Positions 1 through 46,775 of a stretch of DNA of 51,632 nucleotides are shown here, one piece after another. The stretch covers positions 1 to 51,632 of the forward strand of contig JAHEKR010000001.1 of the NCBI GenBank assembly GCA_024638225.1, read 5' to 3'. This DNA comes from Flavobacteriaceae bacterium (lineage in GTDB: Bacteria > Bacteroidota > Bacteroidia > Flavobacteriales > Flavobacteriaceae). The position numbers and the translations under genes were made by a program. The notes beneath the pieces were generated by a model. It ran no database searches. It was not told where the DNA came from and saw only the letters and a list, made by a program, of their open reading frames with translations. Each line of letters opens with the position of its first letter. The first letter of the stretch is position 1.

Positions 1-2219
1 ATTGTAATACTTGCCGATGCTGGATTTGGATACAGGAAGAAAGAATTATTTACCTCAATATCGGCTATACTCAGTCCTGCTTTTTGAAACTCATAAGCAC
101 CAATATCGATAGTATCGCCAAAATTTGAAAAATCAACTTCTTGACTGTTTTCTGTTACTAGCGAAAAGTCGTCGATATAAAAATCACCAGAATGCGACGA
201 ATCGATTGCTGGGCCTTTGACATATACAAATGTATCATCTGCCGCTGTATGCGTGAAATTTCCAGTCAAGCGAACCCAATTGGAGCTAGATGCAGAAATA
301 GCTGAACTCAAATTTGTATAGCTTGCAGTACCGGCGTTGGTTTGTTTGATTGTCAATTGTGCTGTACCACTAACACCATCAGCCAACTTTACCCATACAT
401 AAAAGGTGTAAGTCTCTCCTACAGTTAAGATGCCGTCCAAATCAAGTTTGGCACTATGCCAATTTTCTGTTCGATTTATGACTTTAAGGCTAACACTTCC
501 AGTTTTAGTAGTAGAACTACTCGTTTGTGTGGTTGCGCCAAAATTGGACCAGCCATCTGTACTTAACTCAAAGCTTGTTGATGATATCACATTTGCATCT
601 GGTACCGGACGTGAATTCCCGTCAATATCTACATTAGGAGCGTAATTTTGGTTCCCTGCATCAATTGCCGGTGAATTTTCCAGTAAAGAAAAGTCTGTGC
701 CCTCTAGGTATCCAGCCCAGCCCGAAATGGTAGAAGCATCATCGGAAATAGACGGAGCATTTACAAATTGAGGAGACACATCAATCATATTTGCTGGAGT
801 CTGATTTCCAGGGTAAGCGACTGTTCCAGTAACAAAAATATTGTTCAGCGCTATTTTTTCTCCGTCGTTGAAATTTTCAACAACATCTACTGTATTCGGA
901 TCATCTACAGTAAATGGATCGTCAACATTATTTAACTTCAAAGCAGAATAATCTGAATAACGTGTGACTACTATATTGTTTACGACTGTGATATTTTTAA
1001 CGTAATTAGAAATAATTCCGGCTACCTTTTGACCTCCGTGTCTAGGGTTACCTTCGGCAACTGACTGGTCTTGAATAATGTCATGCACTCCGTTAAAATA
1101 GATTGTGTTATTTCTAATTATCGCAGAGCTGTAATTGGATCTGTCAAAATTAATTCCATTCTTTCCATTGTTGACACAAAGGTTGTTTTCAAACAAAAAA
1201 GTACCCAAGTATCCAGGACGAGGATTATTATCACTTGGAGAGTGGCTTCTAGTTACATAAAGCCCTTGCCCGTCTAAAATTGTGGAGTAACCCGCATTCC
1301 CGTAATTACCGCTTGGTGGCTGCCCATTGTCTGGAAAACTCGCCATATAAAATGGAATACGGTTCCAGTTGTTGTAAACAATATTTCCACGTAGAATCAT
1401 TTTAATATCCGTCGTATTATCAGTATCATCTACAGCAATTGTCTCAGCAAACACAACAGCACTTGAGGCTGAGGAAGTCCACCAAGTAGTGTTGTAAACA
1501 GTATTGTTTTCTACGGTTACATAATCACTATCATTAAACCGAATTCCTGATCCGGGCGTGTCATGAACTATATTGTTTCTTATGATAATATGATGGTGGG
1601 CATCATATCCTCCCCATATTCCTTTTCCCGAAAAGTAACTGTGGTTATTGTTGTTTATGGCTTGTGATTCCTTTAACGTAATTCGATTTCTTCTGTTGAG
1701 TATGGCTTGGTCATATGTTATTGATTGTGACGGGCCCTCAACTTCAAAACCCTCAACAATTACGTAATTAGCATTTGCACCAAGCTTTATGCCTCCTTGC
1801 CCATCAAAAATAATTTTAGGTCGGTGATTTTGATAATTCTTAAGTGTGATATAACCCTGTGTTTCATTCCCCGCCTTATTAATGGTTACCACATGGGGGT
1901 TATTTACATTCTGGCAAGAACTATATACATAAAGATTTCCAGCTGAATCTGTTTGGCCATTTGTGTCTTCAGAAAATGAAATCACGGGCGTACCCGCATT
2001 TTCATCGCGGTATTCACCTTCCATTACGTAAACAGTGCCGCCTGGTCCTACTTCTGCTATTCCTTTGTTTATGGTTTTAAACGGAGCGGCTTTTGTTCCT
2101 AGGTTTGTATCAGCACCAATAGATGATGAGACATAATAGTCCTGTGCAATTACTGCACTAGAAATCATGCAATTTAAAAGTATAAAAATGAGTGCTTGTA
2201 TACTTGTTTTGCAATTCAC
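1..2219 (-). CDS. Secreted beta-helix protein with nested CBM and T9SS sorting signal (3' end missing)
   Basis: I read this frame codon by codon from 2219 to 1 without meeting a stop; the C-terminus lies outside the window. The GTG at 2219 gives a hydrophobic signal sequence ending near SSAVIAQ; ATG at 2168 is in frame but would leave a very short signal, and a TTG at 2240 overlapping the GH43 stop is also possible. The middle carries repeated right-handed beta-helix turns (NNIVHDT, ENNTVYN, RGNIVYN, RNNTIYF, VNNIVV), as in polysaccharide lyases of the PL6/chondroitinase-B fold. Residues encoded near 590-160 look like a CBM22/CBM4-type module (NRTENW, WVRLTGNF, FYIDDFSL) lying between DIDGNSRPV and DTIDIGAYEFQ. 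The last visible residues, SFFLYPNPAS, open a type IX secretion C-terminal domain. It lies 17 bp downstream of GH43, probably in one operon. Catalytic activity cannot be assigned. Confidence 0.88.
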   Translation of the reverse strand, partial: MNCKTSIQALIFILLNCMISSAVIAQDYYVSSSIGADTNLGTKAAPFKTINKGIAEVGPGGTVYVMEGEYRDENAGTPVISFSEDTNGQTDSAGNLYVYSSCQNVNNPHVVTINKAGNETQGYITLKNYQNHRPKIIFDGQGGIKLGANANYVIVEGFEVEGPSQSITYDQAILNRRNRITLKESQAINNNNHSYFSGKGIWGGYDAHHHIIIRNNIVHDTPGSGIRFNDSDYVTVENNTVYNTTWWTSSASSAVVFAETIAVDDTDNTTDIKMILRGNIVYNNWNRIPFYMASFPDNGQPPSGNYGNAGYSTILDGQGLYVTRSHSPSDNNPRPGYLGTFLFENNLCVNNGKNGINFDRSNYSSAIIRNNTIYFNGVHDIIQDQSVAEGNPRHGGQKVAGIISNYVKNITVVNNIVVTRYSDYSALKLNNVDDPFTVDDPNTVDVVENFNDGEKIALNNIFVTGTVAYPGNQTPANMIDVSPQFVNAPSISDDASTISGWAGYLEGTDFSLLENSPAIDAGNQNYAPNVDIDGNSRPVPDANVISSTSFELSTDGWSNFGATTQTSSSTTKTGSVSLKVINRTENWHSAKLDLDGILTVGETYTFYVWVKLADGVSGTAQLTIKQTNAGTASYTNLSSAISASSSNWVRLTGNFTHTAADDTFVYVKGPAIDSSHSGDFYIDDFSLVTENSQEVDFSNFGDTIDIGAYEFQKAGLSIADIEVNNSFFLYPNPASASIT

Positions 2220-13277: not shown

Positions 13278-13351
13278 TGACCCAGGGAGGATTCGAACCC
13301 CCAACCCTCAGAGCCGAAATCTGATATTCTATCCAGTTGAACTACTGGGCC
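13278..13351 (-). tRNA. tRNA-Arg (anticodon UCG)
   Basis: A 74-base cloverleaf can be folded by eye. The acceptor arm is GGCCCAG with CTGGGTC (one G-U pair) and discriminator A; the anticodon stem TCAGA/TCTGA encloses loop TTTCGGC with anticodon TCG; the T arm contains GGTTCGAATCC. The anticodon reads CGA arginine codons. The 3' CCA is not encoded. It stands alone between GH29 and the second GH10 gene. Confidence 0.95.
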
Positions 13352-42713: not shown

Positions 42714-43796
42714 TTAACCGTTTATAATCTCTTCTTGGTGATTGATAGATTCTTGATGGATGGCCTTAAAAATGCGAAGGATAAATTCCTCGCTTAAGCC
42801 TTTTTCGTCTCCATCCAAAATCATCTTGCCTAAGATCTCATTCCATCGCTTAGATTGCAAAACCGCCACATTGTGTGATTTTTTGAGTGCGCCAATTTCA
42901 TTGGCAACTTTCATACGCTTGCTAAGGCTCTCCAACAAGTTGGCGTCTATGACATCAATTTGTGTACGCATGGTATTGAGCTTGTTTTTGTATTCGGCAT
43001 CGTCGTCTGTTTCTTTACGAATTTTAAGATCTGACATCATCTGCACAAGGGTGTCGGGTGTGATTTGTTGGGCGGCATCACTCCAAGCATTGTCTGGATC
43101 CCAGTGGGACTCGACCATCAACCCATCGAAATTTAAATCCAGTGCGGTTTGGCAAATGTCTTGCAATATATCCCGACGTCCAGCAATGTGTGAAGGATCA
43201 CAAATCAGCGGCAGGTCAGGAAATCTATTTTGCAATTCAACAGCGATTTGCCACTCTGGATTGTTCCGGTACTTTGTTTTTTCATAAGTGGAAAATCCAC
43301 GGTGAATTACCCCTAAGTTTTTGATGTTGGCCGTGTACAAACGCTCAATACCACCAAGCCACAAAGACAAGTCTGGATTAACGGGGTTTTTGACCAATAC
43401 TATCTTTTCTGTTCCCTCTAGCGCATCCGCTATTTCCTGAACAATAAAAGGGCTAACGGTTGAGCGCGCACCAATCCATAAAATATCAATATCGTGCTCC
43501 AAAGCCAATTGAACATGGGCGCGATTGGCTACTTCTGTACAGGTCATTAAACCTGTTTCCTCTTTTACACGCTGCAACCATTTTAGACCAATAGCGCCAA
43601 CGCCTTCAAAATTTCCTGGGCGTGTACGGGGCTTCCATATTCCTGCTCGATAGGCAGTAACATCGGTGTCCTTGAGTTGATGAGCGATTTTAAGCACTTG
43701 TTCTTCGGTTTCAGCACTGCAAGGTCCTGCGATAACGAGTGGGTGGTCGAGCTCAAAATTATTGAGCCATTGACGCATGTTTGGATTGTTTTCCAT
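42714..43796 (-). CDS. Bifunctional DAHP synthase/chorismate mutase
   Basis: A 360-residue fusion. The N-terminal part (about 1-265) is a type I-beta 3-deoxy-7-phosphoheptulonate synthase, the entry step of aromatic biosynthesis: VIAGPCSAETEEQV, AYRAGIWKPRTRPGNFEG, LVKNPVNPD, CDPSHIAGRR. The C-terminal part (about 275-355) is an AroQ-type chorismate mutase helical bundle (MRTQIDVIDANLLESLSKRM, ...KRWNEILG). The mutase domain may give feedback control by prephenate, as described for related fusions. It lies 7 bp after tyrA. Confidence 0.95.
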   Translation of the reverse strand: MENNPNMRQWLNNFELDHPLVIAGPCSAETEEQVLKIAHQLKDTDVTAYRAGIWKPRTRPGNFEGVGAIGLKWLQRVKEETGLMTCTEVANRAHVQLALEHDIDILWIGARSTVSPFIVQEIADALEGTEKIVLVKNPVNPDLSLWLGGIERLYTANIKNLGVIHRGFSTYEKTKYRNNPEWQIAVELQNRFPDLPLICDPSHIAGRRDILQDICQTALDLNFDGLMVESHWDPDNAWSDAAQQITPDTLVQMMSDLKIRKETDDDAEYKNKLNTMRTQIDVIDANLLESLSKRMKVANEIGALKKSHNVAVLQSKRWNEILGKMILDGDEKGLSEEFILRIFKAIHQESINHQEEIING

Positions 43797-43803
43797 GGTT
43801 AAC

Positions 43804-44649
43804 TTATTTGTGTTCTAAAATTGTTTTTATTTTGTTTATTTCCTTCATTTCGGCCAGCAATTCCTCGTGAGCATCGGCAGCCAGTTTTTCTTTAAAAGCG
43901 TTCATATTCCTGATGTACTCATCTAGTGTTTCCAAAACGTTTTGTTTGTTTTGGGCAAAAATGGGCATCCACATTTCGGGTGAACTCTTGGCCAAGCGTA
44001 CCGTGGAGGCGAATCCACTACCGGCCATATCAAAGATGTTTTGTTCGTCGGTTTCTTTTTCCAACACGGTTTTGCCAAGCATAAAAGAGGTGATGTGCGA
44101 CAGGTGCGACACATAAGCAATGTGTTTGTCGTGCTCCACAGGATCCATCCTACGGATGATCATTCCCAACTGACCGAATAGCTTTTCTGCCCTGTCCAAC
44201 AGAGCATCATGGGTGAGTGCAGTCTCGCACAACATAATCGTTTTTCCTTTGTATAGCTCAGATACAGCAGCATCGGGGCCCGAGTGTTCGGTTCCTGCGA
44301 TTGGGTGTGCAGCCAAAAACTGATCGCGTTTTGGATGGTTTTTTACCGCTTGACAAATTGCCGATTTCGTAGAGCCAAAATCAATTACTAAGGTTTTTTC
44401 ACCCACAGCGTCTAAAATTTGGGGTAACAAATGCGCAATAGCTTCTACAGGTATAGAAACAAAAACCCAATCGGCATCTTGCAACTGGTGTAGATCACCT
44501 GTTTGGTGAATCAATCCCAAATCAAACGCACGCTTTAGGGTTGCTTCTTTTCGGCTGATGCCTTGCATCACTGCATCAGGGTACAAATGCTGTAGATCCA
44601 ACGAAAGAGAACCGTTCATCAAGCCAATACCAACAAAACTCACCTTCAT
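43804..44649 (-). CDS. tyrA: Prephenate dehydrogenase
   Basis: A 281-residue NAD(P)-dependent enzyme converting prephenate to 4-hydroxyphenylpyruvate, the tyrosine branch. Start at ATG 44649 (MKVSFVGIGLMNGSL), overlapping the aminotransferase stop as ATGA; the longer frame from 44697 runs inside the aminotransferase gene. The Rossmann loop is VGIGLMNGSLSL; FGSTKSAI, HPIAGTEHSGPDAA and HDKHIAYVSHLSH are family signatures, the last containing a catalytic-site His. Confidence 0.95.
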   Translation of the reverse strand: MKVSFVGIGLMNGSLSLDLQHLYPDAVMQGISRKEATLKRAFDLGLIHQTGDLHQLQDADWVFVSIPVEAIAHLLPQILDAVGEKTLVIDFGSTKSAICQAVKNHPKRDQFLAAHPIAGTEHSGPDAAVSELYKGKTIMLCETALTHDALLDRAEKLFGQLGMIIRRMDPVEHDKHIAYVSHLSHITSFMLGKTVLEKETDEQNIFDMAGSGFASTVRLAKSSPEMWMPIFAQNKQNVLETLDEYIRNMNAFKEKLAADAHEELLAEMKEINKIKTILEHK

Positions 44650-45794
44650 GATGCAATTCGTTTTAGCGCTTCGACAATTCGTTCTTCTGGCACGCATAGC
44701 GAAAAGCGGACATAGCCATTCCCTGCGCTTCCAAAAATAGTTCCGGGGGCAATAAAAATATGGTGTTCCTCTAACAAGTGGTCAATGTAGGCTTCACTGT
44801 CAAGTGCGTCTGTTGGAAGCTTCGCCCAAACAAACATTCCAGCCGTATCCCGTTCAAAGCTAGTCCCTAATGCTTCGGCAAGTTGCCAGACGCGTTTACG
44901 TCTTTTGCTATAGATTTGATTTATGGTGGAAAACCATGAGGGTCCTTGCTCAAGAGCAGCTATAGCTCCTTGTTGCAAACCATAGAACATACCCGAATCC
45001 ATGTTGCTTTTTACCTTTAACACGTCTTGTATGTGTGCTTGACTTCCACATACCATACCTACACGCCAACCAGCCATATTATAAGCCTTGCTTAGCGACT
45101 GTAACTCGAGGGCTACATCCTTAGCACCAAAGAACTGAAGTAGACTGAGCGGAGTTTTGTTAAGGATATGCGCATAAGGGTTGTCATTGACAAGTAAAAT
45201 ATCATGCGCTTTCGCAAAAGCAATCATTTCTTCTAGCGTCTTTTTGTCTGCTTTTGCACCTGTAGGCATATGCGGGTAATTGATCCACATCAATTTAACT
45301 CCTGATAAATCTTGCGCTTCAATTGCTGCTAAATCGGGTAGCCAGTCGGTATCCGCTGACAATGTATAGGGTACAGCACGTGCACCTACCAGTTCGGTAA
45401 CAGAAGCGTAGGTTGGGTATCCTGGATTGGGAATAAGCACACCGTCACCTTCGTTAAGAAATGCCATAGAAATGTGTATGATGCCTTCCTTGGATCCCAT
45501 TAATGGAAGTACTTCATGATCAGGATTAAGCGAAACCCCGAAAGCCGTCTGGTAATAATCGGAAATGCTTTGACGAAGCGCAGGTGTACCTTGGTAACTT
45601 TGGTATTTATGTGCGGTTGGATGCGTCACACTTTGGGTAAGCGCCTCCACCACGTTTTCAGGTGGAGCCAAATCGGGACTTCCAATACCCATGTTAATGA
45701 TGTCCTTTCCACTTGCGACAAGGTCACGCACTTCACGTAGCTTACGCGAAAAGTAGTATTCTTGGACGCTATTTAGTCGGTTTGCTGCTTTCAT
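44646..45794 (-). CDS. PLP-dependent aminotransferase, class I/II
   Basis: A 382-residue fold-type I aminotransferase. The PLP lysine lies in LQSLSKAYNMAGWRVGM (Lys in SLSKAY); NYPHMPTGA and VNDNPYAHI are the conserved cofactor-binding segments, and RFSLCVPEERI carries the C-terminal substrate-binding Arg. Its place between prephenate dehydratase and prephenate dehydrogenase suggests it transaminates phenylpyruvate and 4-hydroxyphenylpyruvate to Phe and Tyr; related sequences are often annotated as aspartate or LL-DAP aminotransferases. It overlaps pheA as ATGA. Confidence 0.9.
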   Translation of the reverse strand: MKAANRLNSVQEYYFSRKLREVRDLVASGKDIINMGIGSPDLAPPENVVEALTQSVTHPTAHKYQSYQGTPALRQSISDYYQTAFGVSLNPDHEVLPLMGSKEGIIHISMAFLNEGDGVLIPNPGYPTYASVTELVGARAVPYTLSADTDWLPDLAAIEAQDLSGVKLMWINYPHMPTGAKADKKTLEEMIAFAKAHDILLVNDNPYAHILNKTPLSLLQFFGAKDVALELQSLSKAYNMAGWRVGMVCGSQAHIQDVLKVKSNMDSGMFYGLQQGAIAALEQGPSWFSTINQIYSKRRKRVWQLAEALGTSFERDTAGMFVWAKLPTDALDSEAYIDHLLEEHHIFIAPGTIFGSAGNGYVRFSLCVPEERIVEALKRIAS

Positions 45795-46615
45795 CCGTCT
45801 AATTGGTTTTTGTAGGTACCCAAAACTTTTAGGGACTCCGTCATGATTTCCAAAAGCTGAATACTCTTGGAATAAAAGAATTGTTCAGCAAAGGTGATGT
45901 CCACAAAAAAGGAGTACTTCCAAGGGGTTTCCACCACGGGCATGGACTGAATTTTAGTCAAATTTATTTTACAATCACTCAGTACATTAAGTACTGTAGC
46001 CAAGCTACCGCGTTTGTGGTCTAAAATAAATTTGAGTGAAGCCTTGTTGCAGTCGGCTGCGTTATTGGCGTTGGTTTTGACCACCACAAAGCGGGTTGCG
46101 TTGTTGGCAATGCTATGGATATCGGCAGCAATAATATCGAGTCCATAAAGGTCGGCTGCTTTTTTGGAGGCGATGGCAGCTAGGCCAGTATTCTTGTTTT
46201 TGGCAATGCGCCGAGCTACTTCTGCCGTATCGGCATCTTCAATAAGTTTGATGTGTGGATGCAGAGCAAAGAAATCTTTACACTGTAACAGGGCCATGGG
46301 ATGCGATGCCACTTCATTGATATGTCCTATTTGCGTTCCGGGCAAAGCCATTAATTGATGTTCGATACGGATATACGCTTCATCAACGATGTGCAAGTTG
46401 TGCTTGTCGATTAGGGCGTAGTTTGGAATAATGGACCCCGCAATGGAATTCTCCAAAGCCATCACACCGGTTGATGCTGCACCAGACGTGACACTAGCCA
46501 CAAGCGCATCAAAAGAAAGGCATTCTTCCAACTGAATAGCTGAACCAAAAAGTTGCTCCGCTACCTCGTGGTGGTAGGAGCCTTTTATTCCTTGTATGGC
46601 AATTTTGTGTTCCAT
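45791..46615 (-). CDS. pheA: Prephenate dehydratase
   Basis: A 274-residue enzyme making phenylpyruvate from prephenate. Start at ATG 46615 (MEHKIAIQGIKGSYHHEVAE), because a longer frame would run into the terminator hairpin just upstream. The catalytic domain (to about 180) has GIKGSYH, VMALENSIAGSI, and TRFVVV; the C-terminal ACT domain reads ALKFILDHKRGSLATVLNVL-like (here SLKFILDHKRGSLATVL) with the Phe-binding ESMP-type region as QSMPV. It is the first structural gene of the aromatic operon and lies directly behind the Phe/Tyr leader peptide and attenuator. Confidence 0.95.
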   Translation of the reverse strand: MEHKIAIQGIKGSYHHEVAEQLFGSAIQLEECLSFDALVASVTSGAASTGVMALENSIAGSIIPNYALIDKHNLHIVDEAYIRIEHQLMALPGTQIGHINEVASHPMALLQCKDFFALHPHIKLIEDADTAEVARRIAKNKNTGLAAIASKKAADLYGLDIIAADIHSIANNATRFVVVKTNANNAADCNKASLKFILDHKRGSLATVLNVLSDCKINLTKIQSMPVVETPWKYSFFVDITFAEQFFYSKSIQLLEIMTESLKVLGTYKNQLDG

Positions 46616-46616
46616 A

Positions 46617-46650
46617 AAACAAAAAACCCCGAACATCAGCTCAGGGTTTT
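46617..46650 (-). terminator. Attenuator terminator before pheA
   Basis: On the minus strand AAAACCCTGA pairs with TTCGGGGTTTT around a loop of about seven bases, followed at once by TTTTTTGTTTT. The run ends two bases before the pheA start codon. This is an intrinsic terminator lying between a leader peptide and the first structural gene. Confidence 0.85.
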
Positions 46651-46684
46651 AAATTCGTTTGTAAAAACTATTATACACCCAGCT
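46638..46684 (-). promoter_or_regulatory. Antiterminator pairing of the pheA leader
   Basis: AGCTGGGT (46677-46684) just after the leader stop codon can pair with ACCC and AGCT of ACCCTGAGCT (46638-46647), eight base pairs with a two-base bulge. The second strand is the 5' arm of the terminator, so the two structures exclude each other. A competing pause hairpin joins CTACTT (46699-46704) with AAGTAG (46683-46688). Structures are predicted by eye. Confidence 0.65.
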
Positions 46685-46736
46685 ACTTTCCATTATAGAA
46701 GTAGTAGAAAGAGGTATAATATGCTTTTGTATTCAT
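46683..46736 (-). CDS. Phe/Tyr-rich leader peptide of the pheA operon
   Basis: ATG at 46736 to TAG at 46683 encodes MNTKAYYTSFYYFYNGK, 17 residues with five Tyr and two Phe, seven aromatic residues within nine positions. It begins only a few bases after the predicted transcription start, so translation would be nearly leaderless. The stop codon overlaps the strand shared by the pause hairpin and the antiterminator. Ribosomes stalling on uncharged tRNA-Tyr or tRNA-Phe would favour antitermination and expression of pheA and the genes behind it. The size and codon content are as expected of an attenuation leader; no independent function is likely. Confidence 0.88.
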   Translation of the reverse strand: MNTKAYYTSFYYFYNGK

Positions 46737-46744
46737 TTCGAGAA

Positions 46745-46775
46745 CAAAAGTACACGCAAAATTGAAATAAACAAA
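46745..46775 (-). promoter_or_regulatory. Promoter of the aromatic amino acid operon
   Basis: TTTG (46772-46775), exactly 19 bases, then TACTTTTG (46745-46752) match the Bacteroidota consensus TTTG-N19-TAnnTTTG. Transcription should start near 46739-46741, immediately before the leader peptide ATG at 46736. Confidence 0.8.

Follow-up and report, generated by a model that had tools for sequence, protein, structure and literature searches.

A mixed aromatic leader peptide and a predicted transcription attenuator upstream of the pheA operon in Flavobacteriaceae and related bacteria

The closest described systems are the leader-peptide attenuators of amino acid operons. In enterobacteria, the regulation of pheA involves pheL: the leader peptide is enriched in the amino acid that the pathway makes, a terminator stands before pheA, and there is an alternative pairing. 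The trp operon has its own attenuator, trpL, which we take to be RF00513, and in Escherichia coli the ilvGMEDA and thrABC operons carry multi-amino-acid leaders with branched-chain or Thr/Ile codons, respectively. A study of attenuators by Vitreschak and colleagues, from 2004, is said to mention Bacteroidetes/Chlorobi, and it may cover part of the pheA attenuator.

In the available text of a 2021 transcriptome study of Flavobacterium psychrophilum, a structured 5′ element is reported before pheA, conserved across Flavobacteriaceae genera and with no Rfam match, and leader-peptide attenuation is suggested for amino acid operons (PMC9723704). As far as the accessible portions of two other papers go, two candidate uORFs bearing Phe and Tyr were noted at shikimate genes in a study of five bacterial genomes (PMC6429828), and a Leu/Phe leader is listed in Lactococcus (PMC2864571). 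Our search of the open-licence literature, with subscription papers outside its scope, retrieved no description of a mixed aromatic attenuator in the Bacteroidota. A previous sequence-only reading of the locus considered here had called such a device little described, which is fair, although it is not undescribed, given that the available text of PMC9723704 flags both the pheA element and leader-peptide attenuation.

The leader and its conservation among relatives

The window, i.e., the whole stretch of 51,632 nucleotides that was analysed, comes from a Flavobacteriaceae bacterium (GCA_024638225.1, contig JAHEKR010000001.1) and contains all the parts of an attenuator on its minus strand (Table 1). 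The promoter recognized in the sequence-only reading (TTTG, 19 bases, second box) is an exact match to the Bacteroidota consensus, and 8 bases separate the end of TACTTTTG from the leader ATG. The 17-codon frame is present as well, and its seven aromatic codons are five for Tyr and two for Phe. The fold predicted for the 121-nt leader has an energy of -35.8 kcal/mol (z = -5.24), equalled by none of 200 shuffles.

Table 1. Features of the pheA attenuator and of the operon core in the window
Feature	Coordinates	Strand	Details
Bacteroidota-type promoter	46745..46775	-	TTTG 46775-46772, 19-nt spacer, TACTTTTG 46752-46745; zero mismatches
Leader ORF MNTKAYYTSFYYFYNGK	46683..46736	-	17 codons; ATG at 46736, stop TAG 46685-46683
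1:2 hairpin (protector/pause) over leader codons	46663..46728	-	From predicted fold; contains CTACT/AGTAG
Segment 2, antiterminator 5′ strand AGCTGGGT	46677..46684	-	Overlaps leader stop codon
Segment 3 ACCCTGAGCT	46638..46647	-	Common to antiterminator and terminator
Intrinsic terminator	46616..46650	-	Hairpin 46650-46623 (12 pairs, -16.5 kcal/mol); T-rich tail TTGTTTT 46622-46616, directly adjoining the pheA ATG (46615)
pheA, prephenate dehydratase	45791..46615	-	PF00800, 187 bits; start picked by homology to relatives
Class I/II aminotransferase	44646..45794	-	PF00155; 4-nt overlap with pheA
tyrA, prephenate dehydrogenase	43804..44649	-	PF02153, PF20463; start near 44649 is an assumption, the listed ORF extends to 44697
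DAHP synthase-chorismate mutase fusion	42714..43796	-	PF00793, PF01817

The gene order pheA-aminotransferase-tyrA-DAHP synthase/chorismate mutase, also read from the sequence beforehand, is conserved in relatives, this core being kept in 76 of the 77 named loci that have at least 4 kb downstream. The frames that follow in the window are presumably rsgA, dtd, a MazG-type gene and aroA, which they resemble by inspection; the sequence-only reading had suggested that rsgA, dtd and aroA may share the control of the core.

The comparison within the family was based on 149 genomes, one per genus, in which pheA was found in 131 and had no match in 18; 130 of these 131 places were taken, the excluded one being a 21-residue fragment (G116). 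Leaders were sought as ATG frames within 450 nt upstream of pheA, counting aromatic residues per nine. At least six aromatic residues in nine occur in 123/130 upstream regions as compared with 1/130 antisense controls, and at least five in 124/130 as compared with 12/130. Two further leaders were recognized by eye, one of them 457 nt upstream (L097) and the other with its start cut by the contig end (L130), so that an aromatic-rich leader precedes pheA in 126 of 130 family genes, each from another genus. No leader was seen before the other four (L080, L090, L121 and L108, the latter with just 373 nt upstream). The best named loci, which include Flavobacterium, Tenacibaculum, Polaribacter, Maribacter, Kordia and Aquimarina among others, show an aromatic-rich leader in 80/80 cases, six of which duplicate the stretch preceding pheA in a family genome. 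In the genus of the window, pheA was found in 15 of 17 genomes, and all 15 carry the leader. The conservation of aromatic codons in relatives, put forward beforehand as a check on the sequence-only reading, is thus found in all three samples, and comparison of the sequences establishes the leader, its reading frame and its conserved position.

Allowing one mismatch at most to TTG-18..20-TAnnTTTG, a promoter-like site precedes 93 of the 124 family leaders, while dinucleotide shuffles average 10.9. The gap from promoter to ATG is 10-19 in 73 of these 93, and therefore the term near-leaderless, used in the sequence-only reading, suits the window, with its gap of 8, more than most of its relatives. 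A scan for exact TAnnTTTG alone was too strict (26/124 leaders; shuffles 7.3) and was replaced by the two-box scan. According to the available text of the transcriptome study, TAnnTTTG is the consensus in F. psychrophilum, where leaderless mRNA is rare, amounting to 5.5% (PMC9723704).

Alternative pairings and the predicted switch

The terminator pairing claimed from the sequence is clear in the fold of the window, as a 12-bp hairpin followed by the expected U-run, which abuts the pheA ATG instead of ending two bases before it. A hairpin of -8 kcal/mol or lower, followed by T, was found after 124/124 family leaders and in 2/124 shuffled regions, the control being one mononucleotide shuffle per region; the hairpins picked for L021 and L082 are atypical.

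The claimed antiterminator, formed by AGCTGGGT and ACCCTGAGCT, appears in the predicted stalled-state fold of the window. Taken alone, however, the duplex of the window does not exceed chance (13 of 60 shuffles do as well), and it is the relatives that carry the support; compared with arms swapped from other genera, the same duplex lies within the best 5%. Across the family, the terminator 5′ arm pairs with RNA at or just past the aromatic run, with a mean duplex energy of -11.4 kcal/mol vs -5.9 for shuffled sequences and z < -2 in 105/124 leaders. Since the pairing partner was picked as the best complement, a swap control was needed: the leader's own arm reaches 0.81 of perfect pairing vs 0.56 for arms swapped between genera, and it exceeds the mean swap in 113/124 cases, the kinship of the genomes being uncorrected. 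In 113/124 leaders, the distance from the first base of the last aromatic codon to that of segment 2 is 9-16 nt. Furthermore, segments 2, 3 and 4 co-vary at several arm positions (G-C-G in 52/123 and A-T-A in 36/123 rows), in a tally that covers 123 of the 124 rows and bears the same selection bias, the partner being again the best complement.

The alternative pairing is thus conserved between genera, as proposed beforehand, whereas the covariation expected in close relatives did not appear: none of 39 pairs within the genus, where sequences are very alike, is double-sided. In the predicted stalled-state fold, the arm is paired to upstream RNA in 16/16 aligned rows of the genus, weakly in two. 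In one locus (L299, genome G378) TAT replaces the TAG stop of the leader, so that the peptide is four codons longer and extends over segment 2; here the fold of the antiterminator is weaker.

The pause pairing, proposed as CTACTT with AAGTAG, was located as CTACT/AGTAG inside the leader hairpin of the predicted fold; a search of the genome itself for the pattern CTACTT-18N-AAGTAG gave no match, the assumed spacing being wrong. With no ribosome on the RNA of the window, this hairpin hides segment 2 and the terminator arm is predicted to be free, its probability of being held amounting to 0.04-0.09. The arm is also predicted to be free (P<0.3) in 10/16 rows of the genus, window included, and in 15/124 family leaders, and it would be held at 0.5 or more in 94/124, the mean over the family leaders being 0.63. 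Segment 2 is thus predicted not to be hidden in these 94 leaders, which would make the classical protector hairpin a lineage feature, and the mean arm holding suggests, on these predicted folds, that most relatives are devoid of the classical default-off state.

In order to model the switch, the transcript was cut just before the terminator 3′ arm and the holding of the 5′ arm was followed for each A-site codon, with a ribosome footprint of 15 nt downstream and with equilibrium folds, not kinetics. The mean predicted holding is 0.72-0.76 with the ribosome stalled in the run and 0.57 at the last codon of the run, then drops to 0.25 at the next codon, to 0.14 at the one after that and to 0.09 at the stop; part of this drop is bound to appear in the model, since a ribosome further along the leader covers more of the RNA. 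A footprint of 12 or 18 nt shifts the predicted switch by one codon. The stalled-state holding is 0.75 with the real upstream RNA vs 0.48 when it is shuffled, and the real value is higher in 124/124 leaders. The window shows a milder switch than the average: holding is 0.50-0.59 for stalls in the run and falls to 0.38 at the last Tyr and to 0.29 at the stop.

In the proposed mechanism, RNA polymerase would start a few bases before the leader of 17 codons. With both tRNAs in the charged state, translation would proceed past the aromatic codons to the stop, where the ribosome would cover segment 2 (AGCTGGGT), and segments 3:4 would then form the terminator directly before pheA. When Tyr or Phe is short, the ribosome would stall in the run (codons 6-14), segment 2 would be left free to pair with segment 3, and the polymerase would read through. 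In the window, the 1:2 hairpin of an untranslated leader would hide segment 2, and termination would therefore be the default in the absence of translation. While the terminator and the alternative pairing can be read from the sequence and its comparison, we infer the transcript start, the stalling, the termination and the readthrough in the cell. Comparison and predicted folds together support the Tyr/Phe ribosome-mediated attenuation of the sequence-only reading as the best explanation; it is very probable that the pheA-aminotransferase-tyrA-DAHP synthase/chorismate mutase operon is controlled by a ribosome-mediated transcription attenuator that reads the charging of tRNA-Tyr and tRNA-Phe.

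Amino acids probably sensed and rival explanations

Sensing of two amino acids, Tyr and Phe, as first claimed, agrees with the codons of the window, while many relatives add a third one. Indeed, Phe and Tyr codons are both present in 124/124 family leaders, and Trp codons accompany them in 84/124, as well as in 39/80 leaders of the named loci; the pheA leaders of the window's genus have no Trp codon. The Trp codons are placed 4-5 or 9-10 codons before the end of the run in 76 of 85 cases, and in 84 of 85 the arm is predicted to be held (>0.4) when the ribosome stalls at this codon.

Other amino acid operons were also inspected. Upstream of trpE, the genome of the window has a leader-like frame, MKKRIFNTLWWNS, with Trp-Trp and a terminator-like structure seen by eye (L277:1342-1383, G000 contig C50). 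At least two Trp within nine residues occur in 22/22 trpE loci examined, which are those of the 31 places that span the whole domain, with terminators seen by eye in two. A His-rich frame, MKKTHFFHHNNIAFQTC, lies upstream of hisG in the same genome (L317:1226-1279, G000 contig C31), and frames with at least three His in nine precede hisG in 10/11 loci, own included. The places examined were 11 of 16 for hisG, 8 of 17 for ilvD and 7 of 20 for thrA. For ilvD, a branched-chain-rich candidate, MRVNNVILSIIILLCQL, stands about 237 nt before the domain in L339, and weaker ones in L345 and L349, among eight loci compared free of controls; none is evident in the genome of the window. Nothing convincing was seen at thrA in seven loci, where the anchor is an inner domain and the true upstream region probably lies outside the search. 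The match between codon and pathway (Trp for trpE, His for hisG) appears to provide a good internal control, in a comparison made free of shuffles.

In considering other readings of the pheA leader, the peptide itself might be the sensor. The TnaC peptide stalls the ribosome in response to Trp, and an aromatic nascent peptide could similarly arrest it on free Phe/Tyr, the tRNA charging not being the signal. The leader peptide is conserved in outline, with an aromatic run that is often followed by K/R. Nevertheless, each of the nine run positions tallied admits both Phe and Tyr, and some admit Trp too; none is invariant, the commonest residue reaching at most 104/124. At each of the last four positions, 123 or 124 of 124 leaders have an aromatic residue, the run end being aromatic by definition. 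Moreover, the residues past the run track the RNA pairing. We consider this arrest very improbable. Less probable still is an RNA sensor of a metabolite or protein (T-box, riboswitch or RNA-binding regulator), within which the small frame would be incidental. The strong leader fold and the conserved terminator would suit it, but no Rfam family reaches its gathering score at the leader, T-box and riboswitch families included, the sole gathering-score match in the window being a tRNA at 13278-13351. The best sub-threshold match is RF00512 Leu_leader, with 35.5 bits vs 50 (E 4.5e-06, 211 bases searched), and RF01859 Phe_leader scores 18.5 bits vs a cut-off of 55. The leader peptides of relatives have no match either, in NCBIfam for seven (one of them lengthened by hand) or in Pfam for five.

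The aromatic code is, in addition, specific to the frame: among the 124 family leaders the aromatic fraction of the run is 0.86 in frame vs 0.23 and 0.30 out of frame, and the in-frame value is the highest of the three in every leader. Given this specificity and the lack of a gathering-score match in Rfam, the riboswitch reading was rejected; the frames of their own amino acids borne by trpE and hisG also argue against an RNA sensor. The same data bear on composition, i.e., on an intrinsic terminator together with a U-rich stretch in which Phe/Tyr codons arise by coincidence. The stretch is AT-rich and the window's own antiterminator is weak, yet the recurrence of the leader in relatives (126/130, 80/80 and 15/15), its frame specificity and the antisense and shuffle controls contradict a chance origin, which was rejected as vanishingly improbable.

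Reach beyond the family and comparison with described attenuators

Two wider searches were evaluated on their 44 best-scoring loci, nine of the family and 35 from outside it, with the repeats L135, L136 and L146 excluded and with lower-scoring places, among them distant pheA types of family f5, outside the sample. The nine further family loci all carry the leader. In other families of the order, leader and terminator are found together in 8/16 loci; the misses comprise L141, L154 and six f16 genomes, of which five have no leader and one has a remnant. Both elements are found in 10/12 loci from other orders or families of the class, the misses being L158 and L159, where pheA, by eye, sits behind an aroA-like gene, and in 2/7 loci from other classes. 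In four of these 20 distant loci with leader and terminator (L162, L165, L168 and L172) the antiterminator is no better than in shuffles, and for five of the 20, with L164 at the upper end, 1 to 4 of 10 trials on shuffled regions yielded a terminator.

Two groups deserve separate mention. The f16 genomes (L151-L153, L155-L157), of 0.6 Mb and, we presume, possibly insect symbionts, are devoid of the attenuator, and L153 retains an aromatic frame, MNRTPYYYYFFIELV..., with no terminator. Conversely, the two loci outside the class that have both leader and terminator (L168 and L169) also have pheA scores of 214-215 bits vs at most 160 for other outside-class matches, and their pheA may have been acquired together with the leader by horizontal transfer.

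There is an even chance, in our estimation, that a single attenuator, present across the Bacteroidia, to which this genome belongs, and in two loci beyond that class, combines the charging signals of tRNA-Phe, tRNA-Tyr and, in most genera, tRNA-Trp in order to set the supply of the whole aromatic pathway, beside the leaders of trpE and hisG, with many genera having no protector hairpin and an antiterminator strand located within the leader codons. If this is true, the supply of Phe, Tyr and often Trp would be tied to a single switch by one conserved leader. Ribosome-mediated attenuation would also be in regular use among bacteria that have no Shine-Dalgarno signals in their mRNAs, as stated for F. 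psychrophilum in the available text (PMC9723704). Furthermore, flavobacteria would possess a ready-made sensor of aromatic amino acids, and many short unannotated frames ahead of amino acid operons would find a rule for their annotation.

In view of the sequence evidence, the attenuator is very probably real and of the classical type, with a distinct mixed aromatic code and a wide distribution. It is similar to pheL/RF01859 in the gene controlled, in a leader rich in the end product, in the terminator before pheA and in the alternative pairing. Unlike pheL, the leader of the window has more Tyr than Phe codons (5:2), those of the relatives mix Phe, Tyr and often Trp, and tyrA and DAHP synthase belong to the same operon. 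With the trp attenuator it shares the logic of segments 1-4, including a protector hairpin, which is predicted for the window and, judged by the free arm, for 10/16 rows of the genus; it differs from it in the amino acids, in that the protector hairpin is not general, and in that the antiterminator strand of most relatives begins in the last codons of the leader and not past the stop. As in ilvGMEDA and thrABC, the charging of several tRNAs would be read by one leader, although aromatic codons have no part in those. The element reported in PMC9723704 concerns the same gene, and its description, in the available text, comes without a leader sequence, an amino acid code or a switch model. The proposed mechanism is classical and partly anticipated in print, and what is added to it is the mixed aromatic code, the switch model and the breadth.
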